IMG/VR virus record: IMGVR_UViG_3300042486_000656
Span: 1-44,808 of that record
Length of the DNA: 44,808 bases
Reading direction: 5' to 3' (one strand)
Origin: a virus
Position 1 is the first letter of the stretch, and every line of letters begins with the position of its first letter. Made by a program: the position numbers and the translations under genes. Positions 1-44,808 of this stretch are shown in pieces. Below the pieces are notes generated by a model, which did no database searches, was not told where the DNA came from, and saw nothing but the letters and a program-made list of their open reading frames with translations.

Positions 1-139
1 GCGCGAAACAGGAGAGCTGACACCCGGTGGCGAGCCGAAGGGCGAAGGCCAGCTCATCTCACCCACAGGCCGCGTGTACGTGTTCCAGGAGCAAGACCCG
101 CCGCCTGGTTTCCGATCGACAGGAGCTTCCTTCAACCCG
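1..139. repeat. Terminal overlap, left copy
   Basis: Bases 1-139 match 44670-44808 at 138 of 139 positions. The single difference is T127 against C44796, the third base of an alanine codon. The DNA polymerase reading frame is continuous from the right end into the left end, so this is most simply the overlap of a circularly closing contig, giving a unit length of about 44,669 bp. A genuine short terminal repeat is less likely because it would sit inside an essential gene. Confidence 0.9.
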
Positions 140-24040: not shown

Positions 24041-25805
24041 CGATTGGGGCCTCTGCCGGCGTCATGTTGGTGACCGCCACTTCTTCCTCGCCCTGCGCCA
24101 CGAGCTGCGCCGTTTCCGCGGCTTCCGTGATGGCGATGTTCTCTCCGAACAGCTGGAACTGGTCGAGGTTGAGTAGGCGCTCGATGATACGCGCGATGCT
24201 CTTGCCAGAGAAGTGCGCCCTGACTGCCGGGTCGTTCCACAGGCCGCTGTTGACGACAGCCATCAGGTTCTGCACCAGGACAGCGGAAGCAGCAAAGTGA
24301 CGCGCGCCCACGGCGCGCAGCTTGCCTGCCGAAGTGAGGTCTTCCTTTGTGATCGTAAGGAAGCTGACGGCACCCAGATCGTCGTCCATGATCGGAACCA
24401 ACTCGCTGGCCTTCATGTTGCGCCGGCCAATTTCGAGGAACATATTGAGCACGCGCTCCACCACGTCAATCTCGAACTGCCGCAACCGGTGCTGGAAAAT
24501 GCGCGAGGCGGCCTGTTCCAGAGTCTGCATCTCGAACGCCGTCTTCTCACCAGGTGTGCGGATGCCCATCGCTGTCTTCGGCGCACCAGCGAACTCTTCC
24601 ATGCGCTGCTCCAGCCGCTCCTGCTGGCTTTCCACAGCGAGCACGGCGCCAAGGTTCTTGCCCAGCTCCGTGATCTGCCCATCATCGCCGAGCATGATTT
24701 CAGCGCCTGGTTCCCAGTCGAACTCTTCCACCAGCCCGCGGATTGCGAGCGGAGGCTGCACCGCAAGGTCCGTGGCGTCAGCCTTGGCGTTCTCCAGGTG
24801 GTCGAGCTTGTACTGCATACCGACGAGGTTGTCGAGCGGCCCCATGGCGTACAGGTTGTCGGGGCGCCTGCGCCATCCACAGTGCCCGATGGAGCACTTG
24901 CCGTACCAGGACGGCATCGCGCGATCGTCGAGTACCCACAGGCGATCGATGATGGACACTTGCCGATTCTTGTACAGCTTCTGCGCCTGGACATCATAGA
25001 TGCTTCCGTAGAACGTCAGCACCTCGACGTAGCCCGATGCGAGGTAGTTGTGATACTGGCCGAAGCCGTCCACGTCGTAGGCCGTCACCAGGTTGAGGTC
25101 GTCGGTGGATAGGCCGTGGATTCCGTTTCGCAGGTTGGCCGAGCGCGTGATCGCTTCCCGCAGGAAGCCGTTCTCGGTTTCGGCGTCTGCCCGAGCCATC
25201 ACCTCGCCGAATGGCATCACGGCTCGGGTGATCTTCCAAGAGTTGTCGAAGCTCGCAGCGCGCGGATCGGACACGATGTCCTGGTAGCCGTAGCGAATGA
25301 GCTTCGGGCCGTAGTAGCCCTGAGTGACTGTTCCGTCGTCGTTCTCGTGCTGCTCATTGACGTGGATGACGTCGAAGAAGACGTTCCCGTTGTCGATATA
25401 GTCCAGCAGAAGCTCGGAGACGGTGCTTTCAAACCCGCTTTCTCGGGCCTTTGTCAGCACGTACTGGCGTGCTGCGCGCGACTTCTCCACCGCTGCCGCC
25501 CCCTGGTCGCCAGGGTCCCACTGGACGTACTGGTCGTTGGGGAACAGCGCCGACATGTAGTTGGCGTGCAGGTTGTCGCGGATTTGCGTCAGCTTCGGTA
25601 GGGTGGTTGAGTGCTTCCAGGGCAGCACCTTCGCTGTGGTCGTCGACGTGTCAGTCGCGAACAGGAAGTTGCGAAGCTCCAGGCGCTGGTCTTCCCACAC
25701 CTTTCGATCACGGCGTGCCGTGACCCACATTTCAGCGATGGTCTCGGCCAACGCTGCCTTGTCGAGGATGCTGGCGACTTCCGCTACGGATCGTTTGTTG
25801 CTCAT
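24030..25805 (-). CDS. Portal (head-tail connector) protein
   Basis: The product has 591 residues. The N-terminal half (VTARRDRKVWEDQRLELRNF; LPWKHSTTLPKLTQIRDNLHANY; ALFPNDQYVQWDPGD) matches podovirus portals, and its size is typical. It forms the dodecameric ring at the packaging vertex. It starts within the terminase gene's end by a 4-base overlap and is followed by the scaffold module. Confidence 0.88.
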   Translation of the reverse strand: MSNKRSVAEVASILDKAALAETIAEMWVTARRDRKVWEDQRLELRNFLFATDTSTTTAKVLPWKHSTTLPKLTQIRDNLHANYMSALFPNDQYVQWDPGDQGAAAVEKSRAARQYVLTKARESGFESTVSELLLDYIDNGNVFFDVIHVNEQHENDDGTVTQGYYGPKLIRYGYQDIVSDPRAASFDNSWKITRAVMPFGEVMARADAETENGFLREAITRSANLRNGIHGLSTDDLNLVTAYDVDGFGQYHNYLASGYVEVLTFYGSIYDVQAQKLYKNRQVSIIDRLWVLDDRAMPSWYGKCSIGHCGWRRRPDNLYAMGPLDNLVGMQYKLDHLENAKADATDLAVQPPLAIRGLVEEFDWEPGAEIMLGDDGQITELGKNLGAVLAVESQQERLEQRMEEFAGAPKTAMGIRTPGEKTAFEMQTLEQAASRIFQHRLRQFEIDVVERVLNMFLEIGRRNMKASELVPIMDDDLGAVSFLTITKEDLTSAGKLRAVGARHFAASAVLVQNLMAVVNSGLWNDPAVRAHFSGKSIARIIERLLNLDQFQLFGENIAITEAAETAQLVAQGEEEVAVTNMTPAEAPIDAP

Positions 25806-27340
25806 CCTCTAAACTGAACTCCTCCGAAGCGTGGATGGTAGGTGATCTTGTGCTTCTTCTCGACAGTCCTTGCGCGCGCGGAGCGCGGGGGGACAGCGAT
25901 GTCGATAGCAGCAGTCAGGCCGTCCTTGATGTCGTCGTGCGGAGGCCGTGTCATCACCAGCTCGTCTTCCAGGTTGGCGGTTTCGCCGCCCTTGTAGTGC
26001 CACACCTGCATGTTGTCGTACTTCGGCTCCAGCGTGGCGGCGATGCGTTCGTCCTTGGTGCCTTCGTGGCGGGTTGGCGTGTACTCGTCCACTGACAAGG
26101 ACATGCCGTGCGGCACGATGTAGTTCTCCTTCAGGTCTCGCACGATCACCTTCTGCGCTGCCGTGGCCTCTATTCGGATTTTCCTGAACCCCCACTTCTC
26201 GTACCCGTTTCGCACGGCGTCGAAGTAGCGCGCGATCTTGTCCGTCTTGAAGCGCACGATGTCGATGACGTAGACGTGGTTGCGCGGAGTCACACCGATG
26301 ACGACCAGAGCCGAGTAGTCGGCTTTGCGCGTCAGGCTGTACGCCAGGTCGAGCCCCGCGAACAGCGCCATCGGTTCTTCGCCGATGTACCATTTGCCGT
26401 CTTGCTCAACGAGCTTGTTTCGATCGTAATACTGGAACCTGCTGCGATCGATCTTGGCCAGGCCCGGGTTGTTCGGGTCGTTGTAGTACTGCGCGTAGAA
26501 CTGCTCGCGATCCTCGTACGACGCCCTGATCTTGGCCAGCACTGTCGCGTCGAAACCGAAGTATTTGCCGTCGCTCTCGCGACGCTTTCGCGGCCACAGG
26601 AACTTGCCGCCAACTTCGACAACGCGTGTGTAGCTGTCCCACAGGAACACCTCTTCGACCAACTGACCGTCGTCGTCGTACACTTCGTACGACTGGTCGA
26701 GAAACGTGGCGTACTGGTCTTTCGGGTGGTAACGCGTGCCTACAGCATCGATGTGTGCGTCCGGCTCAAGAATGGACGCAAACTGCGAAACGGCGTTGCG
26801 CACGCGAGTGCGCCCATCTTCCGTGTATGCGTTGCCCGGCACCACGATGTCGTCAAGCTTCATGCGTGTGGCGTGAAAGCCGGTGATGTTCTTGCGAAGG
26901 CCCGCGGCTTTCAGCGTGGGATCGCGAACGCCAGACTGTTTGCGTAGCGGGTGGTCGACGGCGATTTCCTCGTCGGTCCACAACTCGCGGAAGCCAGGCT
27001 CTGCGTTCACCATTTCTGGCCAATAGCGTCGGTACACTTCCGACGTCATCAGTTGCTTCACCAGACCTACCTGCTTCTTGGCAAGGTCGATCGTGGCGGA
27101 CACGTACAGGATCGTCTCTGTCGGATCGCGCGTGATTTCCCACGCGGTCTTGAGCGCCACAAGGCGGCTTTTCAGGTGGCCTCGTGGCAGCAGCACGAGG
27201 ACGTTGTTCTTTCTCTGCGAGGACGTCCACCAACGAAGCATCTCTCGGTGCTCGTCTCCCAGCTCCAGGTAAGGAGCCACAAGAGCGACGAACACCTCCA
27301 GGTCTGCTTCTGCTGCGTCGCGGATTTCGTCTGGAGTCAT
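25802..27340 (-). CDS. terL: Terminase large subunit
   Basis: The product has 512 residues. The P-loop variant is LLPRGHLKSRL (Lys57), and the Walker B-type stretch is MKLDDIVVPG. The nuclease domain has AGLDLAYSLTRKADYSAL (first Asp) and a late PPHDDIKDGLTAAIDIA acidic motif. It powers DNA packaging and cuts the genome. Its start overlaps the previous gene as TAATG. The order terminase, portal, scaffold, capsid is standard for such phages. Confidence 0.92.
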   Translation of the reverse strand: MTPDEIRDAAEADLEVFVALVAPYLELGDEHREMLRWWTSSQRKNNVLVLLPRGHLKSRLVALKTAWEITRDPTETILYVSATIDLAKKQVGLVKQLMTSEVYRRYWPEMVNAEPGFRELWTDEEIAVDHPLRKQSGVRDPTLKAAGLRKNITGFHATRMKLDDIVVPGNAYTEDGRTRVRNAVSQFASILEPDAHIDAVGTRYHPKDQYATFLDQSYEVYDDDGQLVEEVFLWDSYTRVVEVGGKFLWPRKRRESDGKYFGFDATVLAKIRASYEDREQFYAQYYNDPNNPGLAKIDRSRFQYYDRNKLVEQDGKWYIGEEPMALFAGLDLAYSLTRKADYSALVVIGVTPRNHVYVIDIVRFKTDKIARYFDAVRNGYEKWGFRKIRIEATAAQKVIVRDLKENYIVPHGMSLSVDEYTPTRHEGTKDERIAATLEPKYDNMQVWHYKGGETANLEDELVMTRPPHDDIKDGLTAAIDIAVPPRSARARTVEKKHKITYHPRFGGVQFRG

Positions 27341-31253: not shown

Positions 31254-31501
31254 GGGCGCTCCACGTAGTCGATGAGGGTGTCGTGGCGAATGGCGCACTG
31301 GCCGTACGCCTCCATCAGGGAGGCCAGGCGGCCGTACGCCTCGTCGTCAGTCTTGATCGGGGACAGCCCGACCACCTGCGCCAGGGGCGGGCAGCGAACC
31401 ACGGCCTCGGCCGGCGGCGAGGACGGCATCGATGCGGGCAGCGTGCTCTTGCAGGCTGCGAGCAACAGGAGCAGGGGTAGGACAGCCAGACGGGTTGTCA
31501 C
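31250..31501 (-). CDS. Rz1: o-spanin lipoprotein (Rz1-like)
   Basis: The product has 83 residues. A signal peptide with the lipobox LLAAC (Cys17) is followed by a short Pro-rich periplasmic segment, typical of an outer-membrane spanin. It overlaps the Rz-like gene by 152 bases in a different frame, the usual nested/overlapping spanin arrangement. Cys17 is the expected lipidation site. Confidence 0.85.
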   Translation of the reverse strand: MTTRLAVLPLLLLLAACKSTLPASMPSSPPAEAVVRCPPLAQVVGLSPIKTDDEAYGRLASLMEAYGQCAIRHDTLIDYVERP

Positions 31502-31766
31502 GGATCACCTCACGGACGATGGTGGACGGCGGCACATCGGCCAGGCTCTCCCGGAGGGAGGCGTTCAGCTCCCTGGCGACCTGAAGGTCGACGGACAGCT
31601 GGTTGATGGCCGACTCGTACTGCGACTTGATCTGCTTGGCGACAGCGGCCTTGCCGTCTGCTTCGCCGGTACTATGGCCTCGGCTGTAGGCATACCAGCC
31701 GAGGCCCACATGGCTCGCAAGCAGCCCGACAGCTGCAGCGAGCCATAGGTATTGCTTCAAGATCAT
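31347..31766 (-). CDS. Rz: i-spanin (Rz-like)
   Basis: The product has 139 residues. The N-terminal membrane anchor is about residues 7-27 (LWLAAAVGLLASHVGLGWYA). It then has a helical periplasmic region (AAVAKQIKSQYESAINQLSV, RELNASLRESLADV) and a Gly/Pro-rich end. Rz and Rz1 link inner and outer membranes at lysis, which requires a Gram-negative host. The start is ATG 31766 with AGGAG at 31776-31772. It is the first gene of the leftward late transcript, about 135 bases after the predicted transcription start. Confidence 0.85.
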   Translation of the reverse strand: MILKQYLWLAAAVGLLASHVGLGWYAYSRGHSTGEADGKAAVAKQIKSQYESAINQLSVDLQVARELNASLRESLADVPPSTIVREVIRDNPSGCPTPAPVARSLQEHAARIDAVLAAGRGRGSLPAPGAGGRAVPDQD

Positions 31767-31778
31767 CTCTTCTCCTAT

Positions 31779-31803
31779 GGGGCGCCTTTTCGAGAGGCGC
31801 CCC
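31779..31803 (-). promoter_or_regulatory. Leader hairpin 1 of the late transcript
   Basis: An 8-bp perfect stem GGGGCGCC (31779-31786) with GGCGCCCC (31796-31803), extendable across the TTTTCGAGA loop. It lies just upstream of the AGGAG for the first late gene, so it may affect ribosome access, and could act as a weak terminator or anti-terminator. Confidence 0.55.
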
Positions 31804-31811
31804 TTGTACTT

Positions 31812-31842
31812 GAGGAAGCTGCTGTACCCCTGCAGCTTCCTC
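31812..31842 (-). promoter_or_regulatory. Leader hairpin 2 of the late transcript
   Basis: An 11-bp perfect stem (GAGGAAGCTGC/GCAGCTTCCTC) with a 9-base loop. It stands in the 5' leader of the leftward transcript. Stable stems in tandem such as this suggest RNA-level control or processing. Confidence 0.55.
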
Positions 31843-31848
31843 TATAAG

Positions 31849-31874
31849 GGCGCTTCACTTTGGGGTGAAGCGCC
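31849..31874 (-). promoter_or_regulatory. Leader hairpin 3 of the late transcript
   Basis: A 10-bp perfect stem (GGCGCTTCAC/GTGAAGCGCC) with a 6-base loop. It lies between hairpins 2 and 4 in the 5' leader of the leftward transcript. Confidence 0.55.
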
Positions 31875-31904
31875 TTAAGAGCAAAGAGCTTAGGAGCTCT
31901 TAAG
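31874..31904 (-). promoter_or_regulatory. Inverted repeat at the late transcript start
   Basis: A 9-bp perfect inverted repeat, CTTAAGAGC (31874-31882) with GCTCTTAAG (31896-31904), and a nested AGAGCT...AGCTCT alternative. It overlaps the predicted transcription start of the leftward promoter, so it could be a binding site for a regulator or the first leader hairpin. Confidence 0.5.
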
Positions 31905-31907
31905 AGT

Positions 31908-31936
31908 ATTGTACCATTTGGGGAAGTGGAAGTCAA
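31908..31936 (-). promoter_or_regulatory. Leftward late promoter, sigma70-like
   Basis: On the minus strand TTGACT (31936-31931), a 17-base spacer, and TACAAT (31913-31908): five of six consensus bases in each element at optimal spacing. It faces the spanin/late arm. A CCCTGTTGAC direct repeat about 19 bp further upstream brings a second possible -35. This use of host RNA polymerase fits the lack of a phage RNA polymerase gene. Confidence 0.78.
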
Positions 31937-32090: not shown

Positions 32091-32106
32091 TGTTCCACGT
32101 GAAACA
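32091..32106. promoter_or_regulatory. parS-like site 1 (perfect)
   Basis: TGTTCCACGTGAAACA, identical to the chromosomal parS sequence defined for Bacillus subtilis ParB (Spo0J), which is widely conserved in bacteria. ParB binds such 16-bp inverted repeats and spreads along neighbouring DNA. First site of the tandem repeat. Confidence 0.85.
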
Positions 32107-32157
32107 CGCCCTCCCGCGCTGGAGTGCGCGGGCCTGAGCCCGTGGAACGTCGGCCCC

Positions 32158-32173
32158 TGTTCCACGTGAAACA
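32158..32173. promoter_or_regulatory. parS-like site 2 (perfect)
   Basis: TGTTCCACGTGAAACA, exactly 67 bp after site 1. It opens the second tandem unit. Confidence 0.85.
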
Positions 32174-32224
32174 CGCCCTCCCGCGCTGGAGTGCGCGGGC
32201 CTGAGCCCGTGGAACGTCGGCCCC

Positions 32225-32240
32225 TGTTCCACGTGAAACA
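32225..32240. promoter_or_regulatory. parS-like site 3 (perfect)
   Basis: TGTTCCACGTGAAACA, exactly 67 bp after site 2. The sequence beyond this site is no longer the repeat unit. Confidence 0.85.
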
Positions 32241-32303
32241 CTCGTCCCGGGTTGCGCAATGGATCGATGGGAGCGCGCGAGCAGCGCGCCACTGGCGCGC
32301 GCA

Positions 32304-32319
32304 TGTTCCACGTGAAACG
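32304..32319. promoter_or_regulatory. parS-like site 4 (one base different)
   Basis: TGTTCCACGTGAAACG differs from sites 1-3 only in the last base. It is 79 bp after site 3 and outside the tandem repeat. Confidence 0.8.
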
Positions 32320-32352
32320 TGGCGCTGAGGGACGCGAGAGCAGCGCAGCTGA

Positions 32353-32377
32353 ACTGTACTAGGCACAGTAGTACAGT
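32353..32377. promoter_or_regulatory. Operator-like palindrome
   Basis: A perfect 9-bp inverted repeat ACTGTACTA...TAGTACAGT with a 7-base spacer, the size and form of a dimeric repressor or regulator site. It lies between parS-like sites 4 and 5 and upstream of the rightward promoter. Confidence 0.55.
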
Positions 32378-32462
32378 GGGCGTGGCACACCCCGCCCCCT
32401 TCCACACCTGCACGCTTCCCCCTTTCCCCTTGCGCATCAATACCTTGACTCACACCGCAGCA

Positions 32463-32478
32463 TGTTCCACGTGGAACT
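32463..32478. promoter_or_regulatory. parS-like site 5 (symmetrical variant)
   Basis: TGTTCCACGTGGAACT. The inner 14 bases GTTCCACGTGGAAC are a perfect palindrome, the form used as parS in pseudomonads and other Proteobacteria. Confidence 0.78.
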
Positions 32479-32582: not shown

Positions 32583-32611
32583 TTGACACCTGCCCGGCAT
32601 CGGCGTAGTCT
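32583..32611 (+). promoter_or_regulatory. Rightward early promoter candidate
   Basis: A perfect -35 TTGACA (32583-32588), a 17-base spacer and a weak -10 TAGTCT (32606-32611). The predicted start would be about 40 bases before the first early gene at 32656. Weak -10 agreement keeps confidence moderate, and it may need activation. Confidence 0.55.
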
Positions 32612-32655: not shown

Positions 32656-32874
32656 ATGTGTAACGCCCGCCGCCCGTCCTATCGCTTCACGCTCGGGGCC
32701 TTCCGTCCGTCCCGTGTCGTGCTCGACTTCCTGCCCGGCGCAGCCGAGCGGGCCAGGGCGTCCCTGCGCCGCAAAGCGCAAGGCTACGCCATCAAGCGCA
32801 ACACCCACAAGGCACCGGCCCTGTTCACCATCGGCAACGGCGTTGCCACCATGGACCTGCGGGACGCCCGATGA
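32656..32874 (+). CDS. First early gene, small basic protein
   Basis: The product has 72 residues. ATG 32656 follows GAGGAAC. It begins MCN, the same opening as other small early proteins here. Arg-rich, with RPSRVVLDFLPGAAERARASL and KAPALFTIGNGVATMDL. No family recognised. As the first gene expressed rightward it is a host-takeover candidate by position only. Confidence 0.7.
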   Translation: MCNARRPSYRFTLGAFRPSRVVLDFLPGAAERARASLRRKAQGYAIKRNTHKAPALFTIGNGVATMDLRDAR

Positions 32875-33116
32875 CGCCGCGCGCCCTCGACGCCCTCGCT
32901 GCATTTGTCGTGTCCGCGCTGCTCTTGCTGATGACAGCCGCGCTCGTCAATGCGCGGCGCCACGACAAGGCGGAAGTGTTTCACGTGGAACGCATCGACG
33001 CCAACGGCGTGGCGTGCGTTGCCGTCAAGCACGGGGCGAGCGTCGCCTTGTCCTGCAACTGGCCCGCTGCCGCCCCTAAGTGGTGGCAGCCACAACCCGA
33101 GGAAACGAAGCCATGA
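32871..33116 (+). CDS. Small membrane protein with a parS-like site in its gene
   Basis: The product has 81 residues. One membrane segment at about 9-26 (LAAFVVSALLLLMTAALV), then a short soluble tail with two Cys and Trp pairs (SCNWPAAAPKWW). The parS-like site 6 (32977-32992) lies in codons for VFHVER. Start overlaps the preceding stop (ATGA). Confidence 0.65.
   Translation: MTPRALDALAAFVVSALLLLMTAALVNARRHDKAEVFHVERIDANGVACVAVKHGASVALSCNWPAAAPKWWQPQPEETKP
32977..32992. promoter_or_regulatory. parS-like site 6, inside a coding region
   Basis: TGTTTCACGTGGAACG, whose reverse complement core GTTCCACGTGAAAC equals the core of sites 1-3. It lies within the gene at 32871-33116, some 500 bp from site 5. 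Placement in a coding region makes chance or functional selection both possible. Confidence 0.65.
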
Positions 33117-35772: not shown

Positions 35773-36069
35773 ATGATCCAGCAAGGTACCAAGATCAAGA
35801 TCGTCCGCGCCTACTGGACGGGCGGACTGTACAAAAACGGCGACGTGCTTACCGTACACCAACAGGAAGTCCTCGGCGTTCTGGTTAAATTCGACACGGC
35901 GAAGGATTACGGACACGGCCCTGGCCTGCTCTACATCATGCGCCACGAGTTCGAGGTGGCGGACGCCATGATCCGCCTGTTCACCGAAATGAAAGAGCGC
36001 GGCCCGTTCTACACGGAACGGTCTGGCATCATCCGCAACAACAACCCGGAGGTGAATCAACATGTGTGA
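35773..36069 (+). CDS. Chimeric member of the EFEV small-protein family
   Basis: The product has 98 residues. Residues 1-59 look like the SH3/KOW-like small proteins nearby (MIQQGTKIKIVRAYWTGGLY, NGDVLTV, VLVKFDTAKD, ending HEFEV). From residue 60 on (ADAMIRLFTEMKERG ... NNNPEVN) it is the C-terminus of the gene at 36268-36633, carried by the 121-bp repeat. The family normally ends a few residues after EFEV, so this gene is a recombination product. Confidence 0.72.
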   Translation: MIQQGTKIKIVRAYWTGGLYKNGDVLTVHQQEVLGVLVKFDTAKDYGHGPGLLYIMRHEFEVADAMIRLFTEMKERGPFYTERSGIIRNNNPEVNQHV

Positions 36070-36071: not shown

Positions 36072-36271
36072 GTGCAGAGCTGAAGCCTGGAAGCAAGATT
36101 CTGATCGTTAGGCCGTGGTTCACTAACGAACTGTACAGCAAGGGAGACATCCTGGAAGTGGCAAATATTGACGCCCCCGGCGTGAAAGTGCGCTTTCCCG
36201 GTTACGTGGATGGCGGCGACGGATCAGACCTGTTCTATCTGTCGTGCACCGAGTTCGAGGTGATCGAGTGA
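36062..36271 (+). CDS. EFEV family small protein (MCE start)
   Basis: The product has 69 residues: MCECAELKPGSKILIVRPW, then YSKGDILEV, VKVRFPGYVDGGDG, ending SCTEFEVIE. It has the length and pattern of a small beta-barrel (SH3/KOW-like), inferred by eye. It starts at the conserved ATGTGTGAAT and overlaps the next gene's GTG start. Function unknown. Confidence 0.7.
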   Translation: MCECAELKPGSKILIVRPWFTNELYSKGDILEVANIDAPGVKVRFPGYVDGGDGSDLFYLSCTEFEVIE

Positions 36272-36633
36272 GCAACGCAACCACGCCCCTCGCCGAGCAA
36301 CAGGACTACACGTCCGTGTGCGGTGAGGACCCTCGGTATCTGCACCTGAATGACGGGGAGAGGGCAGACTTTGCCCGCAGTGAGGCCGCCAACATAGACC
36401 TTGATTGGCGTGTGCGCTACGCCGACGCGGATAGCTGGCGCTCGCCGCTGTGCCCAGGCTGCGCCGTCACCGTGGCGTTCAACATCATGTCGCACTTCGT
36501 GCAGACGCAGGGCATGGACCACGTCGAGGTGGCGGACGCCATGATCCGCCTGTTCACCGAAATGAAAGAGCGCGGCCCGTTCTACACGGAACGGTCTGGC
36601 ATCATCCGCAACAACAACCCGGAGGTGAATTAA
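36268..36633 (+). CDS. Hypothetical protein, donor of the duplicated C-terminus
   Basis: The product has 121 residues, starting at GTG 36268 in the previous stop (GTGA). Segments DARSEAANIDLDW-like acidic region, then CPGCAVTVAFNIMSHFVQTQG with a Cys pair, and the shared C-terminal stretch VADAMIRLFTEMKERGPFY. As its C-terminus is continuous with the rest, this is probably the original copy of the repeat. Confidence 0.65.
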   Translation: MSNATTPLAEQQDYTSVCGEDPRYLHLNDGERADFARSEAANIDLDWRVRYADADSWRSPLCPGCAVTVAFNIMSHFVQTQGMDHVEVADAMIRLFTEMKERGPFYTERSGIIRNNNPEVN

Positions 36634-44287: not shown

Positions 44288-44808
44288 GCCGCATCAAAGA
44301 GTGCTTCATCACGCGCTTCCCTGAAGGCGCGTTGGTGGAGGCAGACTTCAGCCAGCTGGAGGTGATCGGCCTGGCCGCCCTCACCCAGGACCCGCAGCTC
44401 ATCGAAGACCTGCGCGCTGGGCGTGACATGCACAGGTTCTTCGCCGCGCAGCTCTACAACAAGCCCGAAGAGGAGGTGACCAAGGCCGAGCGAACGCTCA
44501 CCAAGCGCTTCACGTTCCAGCTGCAATACGGAGGCGGTGCGCAGGGCCTGGCCAAGAAGAACCATGTGTCGGTGGAAATCGCCAAGCGCTTCATCGAAAC
44601 GTACTACGGCCGCTACTACGTCGTCAAGGACTGGCAGGACGACAACGTGGAGCGTGTAGCGCGCAGCAGGCGCGAAACAGGAGAGCTGACACCCGGTGGC
44701 GAGCCGAAGGGCGAAGGCCAGCTCATCTCACCCACAGGCCGCGTGTACGTGTTCCAGGAGCAAGACCCGCCGCCTGGTTTCCGATCGACAGGAGCCTCCT
44801 TCAACCCG
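44284..44808 (+). CDS. DNA polymerase C-terminal polypeptide (palm/fingers), 5' part, runs off the window
   Basis: The frame from CTG 44284 reads LSRIKECFITRFPEG, then motif A VEADFSQLEVIGLAAL, DMHRFFAAQLY, and motif B KRFTFQLQYGGG. It continues across the contig joint to bases 2-162 and, after intron removal, 879-1182 (motif C). The start is inferred. CTG overlaps the previous stop as CTGA, the same style as the ATGA/GTGA/TTGA overlaps used throughout, with GGAG (44272-44275) eight bases before it. The nearest conventional alternative is TTG 44179, which would add 35 unlikely residues, or TTG/GTG at about 44331-44336, which would cut into motif A. Confidence 0.85.
   Translation, partial: MSRIKECFITRFPEGALVEADFSQLEVIGLAALTQDPQLIEDLRAGRDMHRFFAAQLYNKPEEEVTKAERTLTKRFTFQLQYGGGAQGLAKKNHVSVEIAKRFIETYYGRYYVVKDWQDDNVERVARSRRETGELTPGGEPKGEGQLISPTGRVYVFQEQDPPPGFRSTGASFNP
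44670..44808. repeat. Terminal overlap, right copy
   Basis: Matches bases 1-139 with one synonymous mismatch (C44796 against T127). See the left copy. It marks the point where the circular genome was opened. Confidence 0.9.

Follow-up and report, generated by a model that had tools for sequence, protein, structure and literature searches.

The divergent hub of a closed phage genome

The window, by which we mean the whole stretch of 44,808 nucleotides analysed, starts and ends with the same 139-bp repeat. The contig thus closes on itself to a genome of approximately 44.67 kb, which agrees with the earlier note's view that it is apparently complete. The left arm, on the minus strand, contains the terminase, portal, capsid, tail and internal virion genes, and the right arm, on the plus strand, contains the genes for primase, helicase, DNA polymerase, exonuclease, HNH nucleases and ribonucleotide reductase. 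The terminase is 51-55% identical to those of ctOsX528 (a Manatee Spring podovirus), Methylophilales phage MEP401, and ICP2 and its relatives, and based on these matches we conclude that the phage is a Zobellviridae-like podovirus. Terminase, portal and capsid of the ICP2/PA11 type are all present, as is the two-arm gene order. The host is probably Gram-negative; a search for it through genome contigs gave no match. The neighbouring ORFs at 35773-36069 and 36268-36633 have an identical C-terminus of approximately 35 amino acids (..VADAMIRLFTEMKERGPFYTERSGIIRNNNPEVN), a recent partial duplication. The features to which we refer below are the following.

1-139, plus strand: terminal repeat, 99.3% identical to 44670-44808 (one mismatch)
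25802-27340, minus strand: terminase large subunit, which places the phage near Zobellviridae
31347-31766, minus strand: first left-arm ORF, by appearance a spanin (Rz)-like membrane protein
31908-31936, minus strand: sigma70-like promoter TTGACT-17-TACAAT with extended -10, from the promoter scan, directed towards the left arm (lysis and structural genes)
32091-32106, plus strand: parS site 1, exact TGTTCCACGTGAAACA
32158-32173, plus strand: parS site 2, exact TGTTCCACGTGAAACA
32225-32240, plus strand: parS site 3, exact TGTTCCACGTGAAACA
32091-32224, plus strand: two exact 67-bp tandem units, each with a parS site, an inverted repeat CCCGCGC-TGGAGT-GCGCGGG (hairpin read from the sequence) and a half-site GTGGAAC
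32304-32319, plus strand: parS site 4, variant TGTTCCACGTGAAACG
32353-32377, no strand: inverted repeat ACTGTACTA-GGCACAG-TAGTACAGT with perfect 9-bp arms, located between sites 4 and 5 and present once in the genome
32463-32478, plus strand: parS site 5, variant TGTTCCACGTGGAACT, core a perfect palindrome
32583-32611, plus strand: possible right-arm promoter TTGACA-17-TAGTCT with a weak -10, read from the sequence and absent from the promoter-scan output
32656-32874, plus strand: first conserved right-arm ORF, phrog_15315, of unknown function, with a relative in contig L251
32977-32992, plus strand: parS site 6, TGTTTCACGTGGAACG, within ORF 32871-33116 (reading ..EVFHVER..), not kept in L251

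Sites 1 to 5 are intergenic. They occupy the divergent hub, with the left promoter on one side and the ORF at 32656 on the other, which confirms the placement between the two arms that had been described earlier. A coding reading of these sites (MFHVK..) was rejected, as no convincing ORF was found. The Pfam search of the window ORFs returned an Rz1-like match, which we infer to belong to ORF 31347-31766. The leader that connects the left promoter to this ORF contains two strong hairpins, at 31779-31803 and 31842-31881. No RNA families or tRNA genes were found in the window, and the GC skew displayed no clear origin at the hub. The inverted repeat between sites 4 and 5 is a possible operator.

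The core GTTYCACGTGRAAC is intact in all six sites, and the differences between them are confined to positions 4, 13 and 16 of the 16-mer, which are places where parS is known to vary. The sites have the form of chromosomal parS, a 16-bp near-palindrome TGTTNCACGTGNAACA with variation only at tolerated positions, as had been proposed in the earlier note. A scan of the whole window at up to two mismatches to the core identified no sites beyond the six. Under a second-order Markov model, 0.0015 perfect cores are expected in the window, as compared to the six present. In 100 shuffles, the average was 0.16-0.20 matches when up to three mismatches were allowed, and the observed counts were never reached. 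Judged by sequence, the sites are genuine parS and not chance occurrences, consistent with the earlier argument from the repeated 16-bp word. The three perfect and two variant copies that the note had reported within 32091-32478 are all present, and the sixth site at 32977 had been overlooked.

The three perfect copies cannot be counted as independent, since two of them result from an exact 67-bp tandem duplication, in which positions 32091-32157 are identical to positions 32158-32224 and are followed by the third parS. The half-site GTGGAAC recurs at 32142 and 32209, once per unit. After discounting the duplication, at least four independent sequence contexts remain among the window sites. 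The duplication is what an origin of the cluster by chance tandem expansion, or as host contamination, would draw upon, but such an origin is extremely unlikely: the number of contexts speaks against expansion, the cluster is located inside a closed phage genome, the viral contigs L125 and L251 align to the phage arms on either side of it, and no hub-length match to plasmids or other phages was found.

Partition genes and relatives of the phage

Searching the whole genome with the ParB_N, HTH_ParB and AAA_31 (ParA) profiles yielded no candidate, and most of the control genomes were positive. Nor were ParA, ParB, an integrase or a phage repressor present among the 14 Pfam families identified from 59 further predicted ORFs; nor did this search, which was general rather than dedicated, return a family of plasmid replication initiators. 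The linked parA and parB genes of a complete ParABS system were thus not found in the closed genome. As the genome has neither ParA nor ParB, which had been noticed before, the sites are orphan, and the combination of perfect host-type parS without a phage ParA or ParB is that of phage phi29. The match to parS, taken together with the lack of a phage homologue, points to host ParB as the natural ligand and supports the earlier suggestion that the phage probably uses the host protein. Binding of host ParB to the window sites is predicted with high confidence, assuming that the ParB of the host has the matching specificity.

No site was found at zero or one mismatch in 71 related loci covering 894 kb, and at two mismatches the same loci gave 8 matches versus 10 for the reversed control. 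The complete genomes of ICP2, MEP401 and ctOsX528, and eight more related viral records, also contained no sites. Since the wider family lacks the sites, the feature is lineage-specific and not a core function of Zobellviridae. In protein-based viral scans and a scan with hub genes for same-genus relatives, only L125 and L251 were found, and the cluster is outside both contigs. Judged by collinearity, L125 (terminase 71%) stops approximately 80 bp short of site 1, and L251 (helicase 83%) begins to the right of the hub, with site 6 absent. Both contigs break near the hub, and repeats at the hub may break assemblies. The search of related phages for the 16-bp site, which the earlier note had recommended, thus shows that it is absent from distant Zobellviridae, and the nearest relatives do not span the cluster.

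We also considered that the palindrome may be bound by a phage protein, such as a replication initiator or a repressor, and resemble parS by convergence. The repeats and GC-rich hairpins at the hub do resemble origin or operator arrays, and many of the small ORFs have no family to which they can be assigned. However, the sites match the exact parS consensus and depart from it only as parS is allowed to, phages of unrelated families conserve the identical 16-mer, no ParB-type HTH was found in the genome and the motif is not kept in the Zobellviridae relatives. We therefore regard a phage-encoded ligand as very unlikely.

Orphan parS in other phages and in viral DNA

Phage phi29 contains four perfect copies of the window 16-mer, as the reverse complement TGTTTCACGTGGAACA, and phage B103 contains two parS sites. 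Two of the parS places are homologous between these genomes, which are 68-69% identical. A search of phi29 did not identify a ParA gene, and no ParB is annotated. Spo0J, which is the host ParB, reportedly traps the phi29 chromosome in spores (PMC9437464, citing Meijer et al. 2005). The earlier view that such a phage system had not been described must thus be abandoned. The two cases are alike in that the virulent phi29 also has no ParA or ParB that could be found, that the 16-mer is the same and perfect, and that host ParB is implicated (PMC9437464). They differ in that the sites of phi29 are scattered across 8 kb and partly located in genes, whereas five window sites are packed into 390 bp of an intergenic hub. 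Furthermore, those of phi29 are tied to spore entrapment in a sporulating host, whereas the window phage belongs to an unrelated family and probably infects a Gram-negative host. The window is a case of phi29-type orphan parS with a new arrangement, a dense intergenic cluster at a divergent hub.

Among the GenBank phages, the best match to the hub was a parS-containing piece of Pseudomonas phage ventosus. Perfect cores were found in ventosus (four), UAVern (four), Bitten (three) and vB_PF_Y1-MI (one), and no ParB_N was found in any of these four phages. In alignments that are 70-81% identical, several of their parS sites have been conserved as islands while the surrounding intergenic DNA has diverged; one site alternates between GTGGAAC and GTGAAAC, both of which are compatible with parS, and one intragenic site has been lost between the compared genomes. 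Like those of the window, the sites are orphan and mostly intergenic, and several are conserved between diverged genomes. However, these phages are 93-101 kb in size and unrelated to the window phage, and their sites are spread over several kb. A limited literature search found no paper that points them out. A match to the Mycobacterium prophage prophiGD11-3 was rejected, as it has no parS core.

Phages P1 and N15 and the parABS-carrying mycobacteriophages have centromere sites on phage DNA, and in this they resemble the window; in contrast, they encode their own ParA and ParB, which act on sites of their own type. The chromosomal ParABS clusters of B. subtilis, P. aeruginosa and Caulobacter have the same consensus and several sites close together, whereas the window sites have no linked parA or parB and are located on a 44.7-kb phage.

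In IMG/VR, at least 120 stretches contain TGTTYCACGTGRAACA versus two for the reversed control. The control scan was complete; the former figure, and with it the enrichment, is a lower bound. In 210 fetched loci, 100 of the 253 sites were noncoding as compared to 31.5 expected (p=1.5e-27, simple ORF caller). ParB_N was identified in 1 of 17 multi-site viral contigs and in 1 of 50 others (2 of 67 in all). We searched one long ORF from each of ten multi-site loci, two of which are from contig G015; several matched terminase, portal or phage polymerase families, and contamination is therefore unlikely to explain the excess of parS. Some of the parS-bearing viral contigs are short. From these sequence comparisons, parS looks to be a general but little noticed feature of phage genomes.

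Two of the multi-site contigs have a distinctive layout. The 116,662-bp contig G015 (IMGVR_UViG_3300037518_000322; loci L174, L299 and L300) has 24 perfect cores at 91.7-112.4 kb, mostly TGTTTCACGTGGAACA. They adjoin a strong ParA gene (90915-91454) and a D5-like primase; a 139-aa ORF follows parA and no ParB_N was found. With ParA beside its 24 sites, it was rejected as an orphan case. The 18-kb contig L305 (IMGVR_UViG_3300029906_000047) encodes a viral type-B DNA polymerase, and its six parS sites form three close pairs, all of them intergenic.

The commonest pattern is a single site, found in 187 of the 210 viral loci. This fits poorly with a decoy, in which replicating genomes with six sites each would strip the host chromosome of ParB and thereby disturb segregation or SMC loading. 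The many sites per genome in the window, with a dose raised by the tandem duplication, are in line with a decoy, but segregation defects would be worth little given lytic killing. Altogether, we consider a decoy improbable.

Probable binding of host ParB at the hub: possible retention or promoter control

At parS, ParB is loaded onto DNA as a CTP clamp, which then slides (PMC12704722). Our preferred reading, which the sequence makes reasonably likely, is that the orphan set of genuine parS sites nucleates clamp loading of host ParB-CTP on the phage DNA and links it to host partition. Clamps would nucleate at the five sites between the divergent promoters and at the one just inside the early arm, and would slide across the flanking kilobases. 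The phage genome would thereby be attached to the host ParA/SMC system and positioned with the nucleoid, and would be kept in the cell during a slow or paused lytic cycle, as proposed for phi29 and Spo0J. The spreading ParB would probably also damp both flanking promoters.

If host ParB binds, retention or positioning of the phage genome is the likeliest use, although we put it at slightly less than an even chance. Two points speak against our preferred reading as a whole: the wider Zobellviridae, including the complete genomes named above, do not have the sites, and partition is of little gain to a fast lytic phage. Local promoter control, again given binding, is a distinctly weaker candidate, and titration of ParB and other uses are, to equal degrees, unlikely.

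Control of transcription is nevertheless the leading rival to linkage with host partition, because the sites lie between promoters and because P. aeruginosa ParB, when bound at the intergenic parS3 and parS4, represses the adjoining promoters (PMC5521831). It would mean that ParB between the divergent promoters represses one or both arms, that expression reads the ParB level or cell-cycle state of the host, and that partition is not the point. The sites are placed between a good left promoter (31936-31908) and the right arm, and an operator-like inverted repeat is interleaved among them. Other phages also borrow host cell-cycle regulators, by way of CtrA boxes in phages of Alphaproteobacteria and of Spo0A in phi29 (PMC9437464). 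The CtrA boxes, which are discussed there in connection with lytic deferment, resemble the window sites in that they, too, are bound by a host cell-cycle protein and occupy a large intergenic stretch of phage DNA; they differ in protein and motif, and CtrA is a transcription factor. However, in phi29 and many viral contigs the parS sites are scattered, some of them intragenic, and not at promoters, and silencing by chromosomal ParB is usually limited (PMC5521831). We thus consider a pure promoter switch unlikely, though less so than a decoy.

More tentatively, capture of host ParB by orphan parS may be a widespread phage strategy that has arisen repeatedly, rather than a peculiarity of phi29 sporulation, and the hub cluster of this phage would then be a hold that depends on ParB and ties genome retention to repression of the flanking arms; we regard this wider proposal as possible but doubtful. 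Few bacterial DNA-binding proteins are as conserved as ParB, which is loaded as a CTP clamp wherever parS occurs. If orphan parS sites are present in many phage families, host chromosome segregation would be a shared target or tool of phages, and the trapping of phi29 in spores would, if the proposal is true, be one case of a broader rule.
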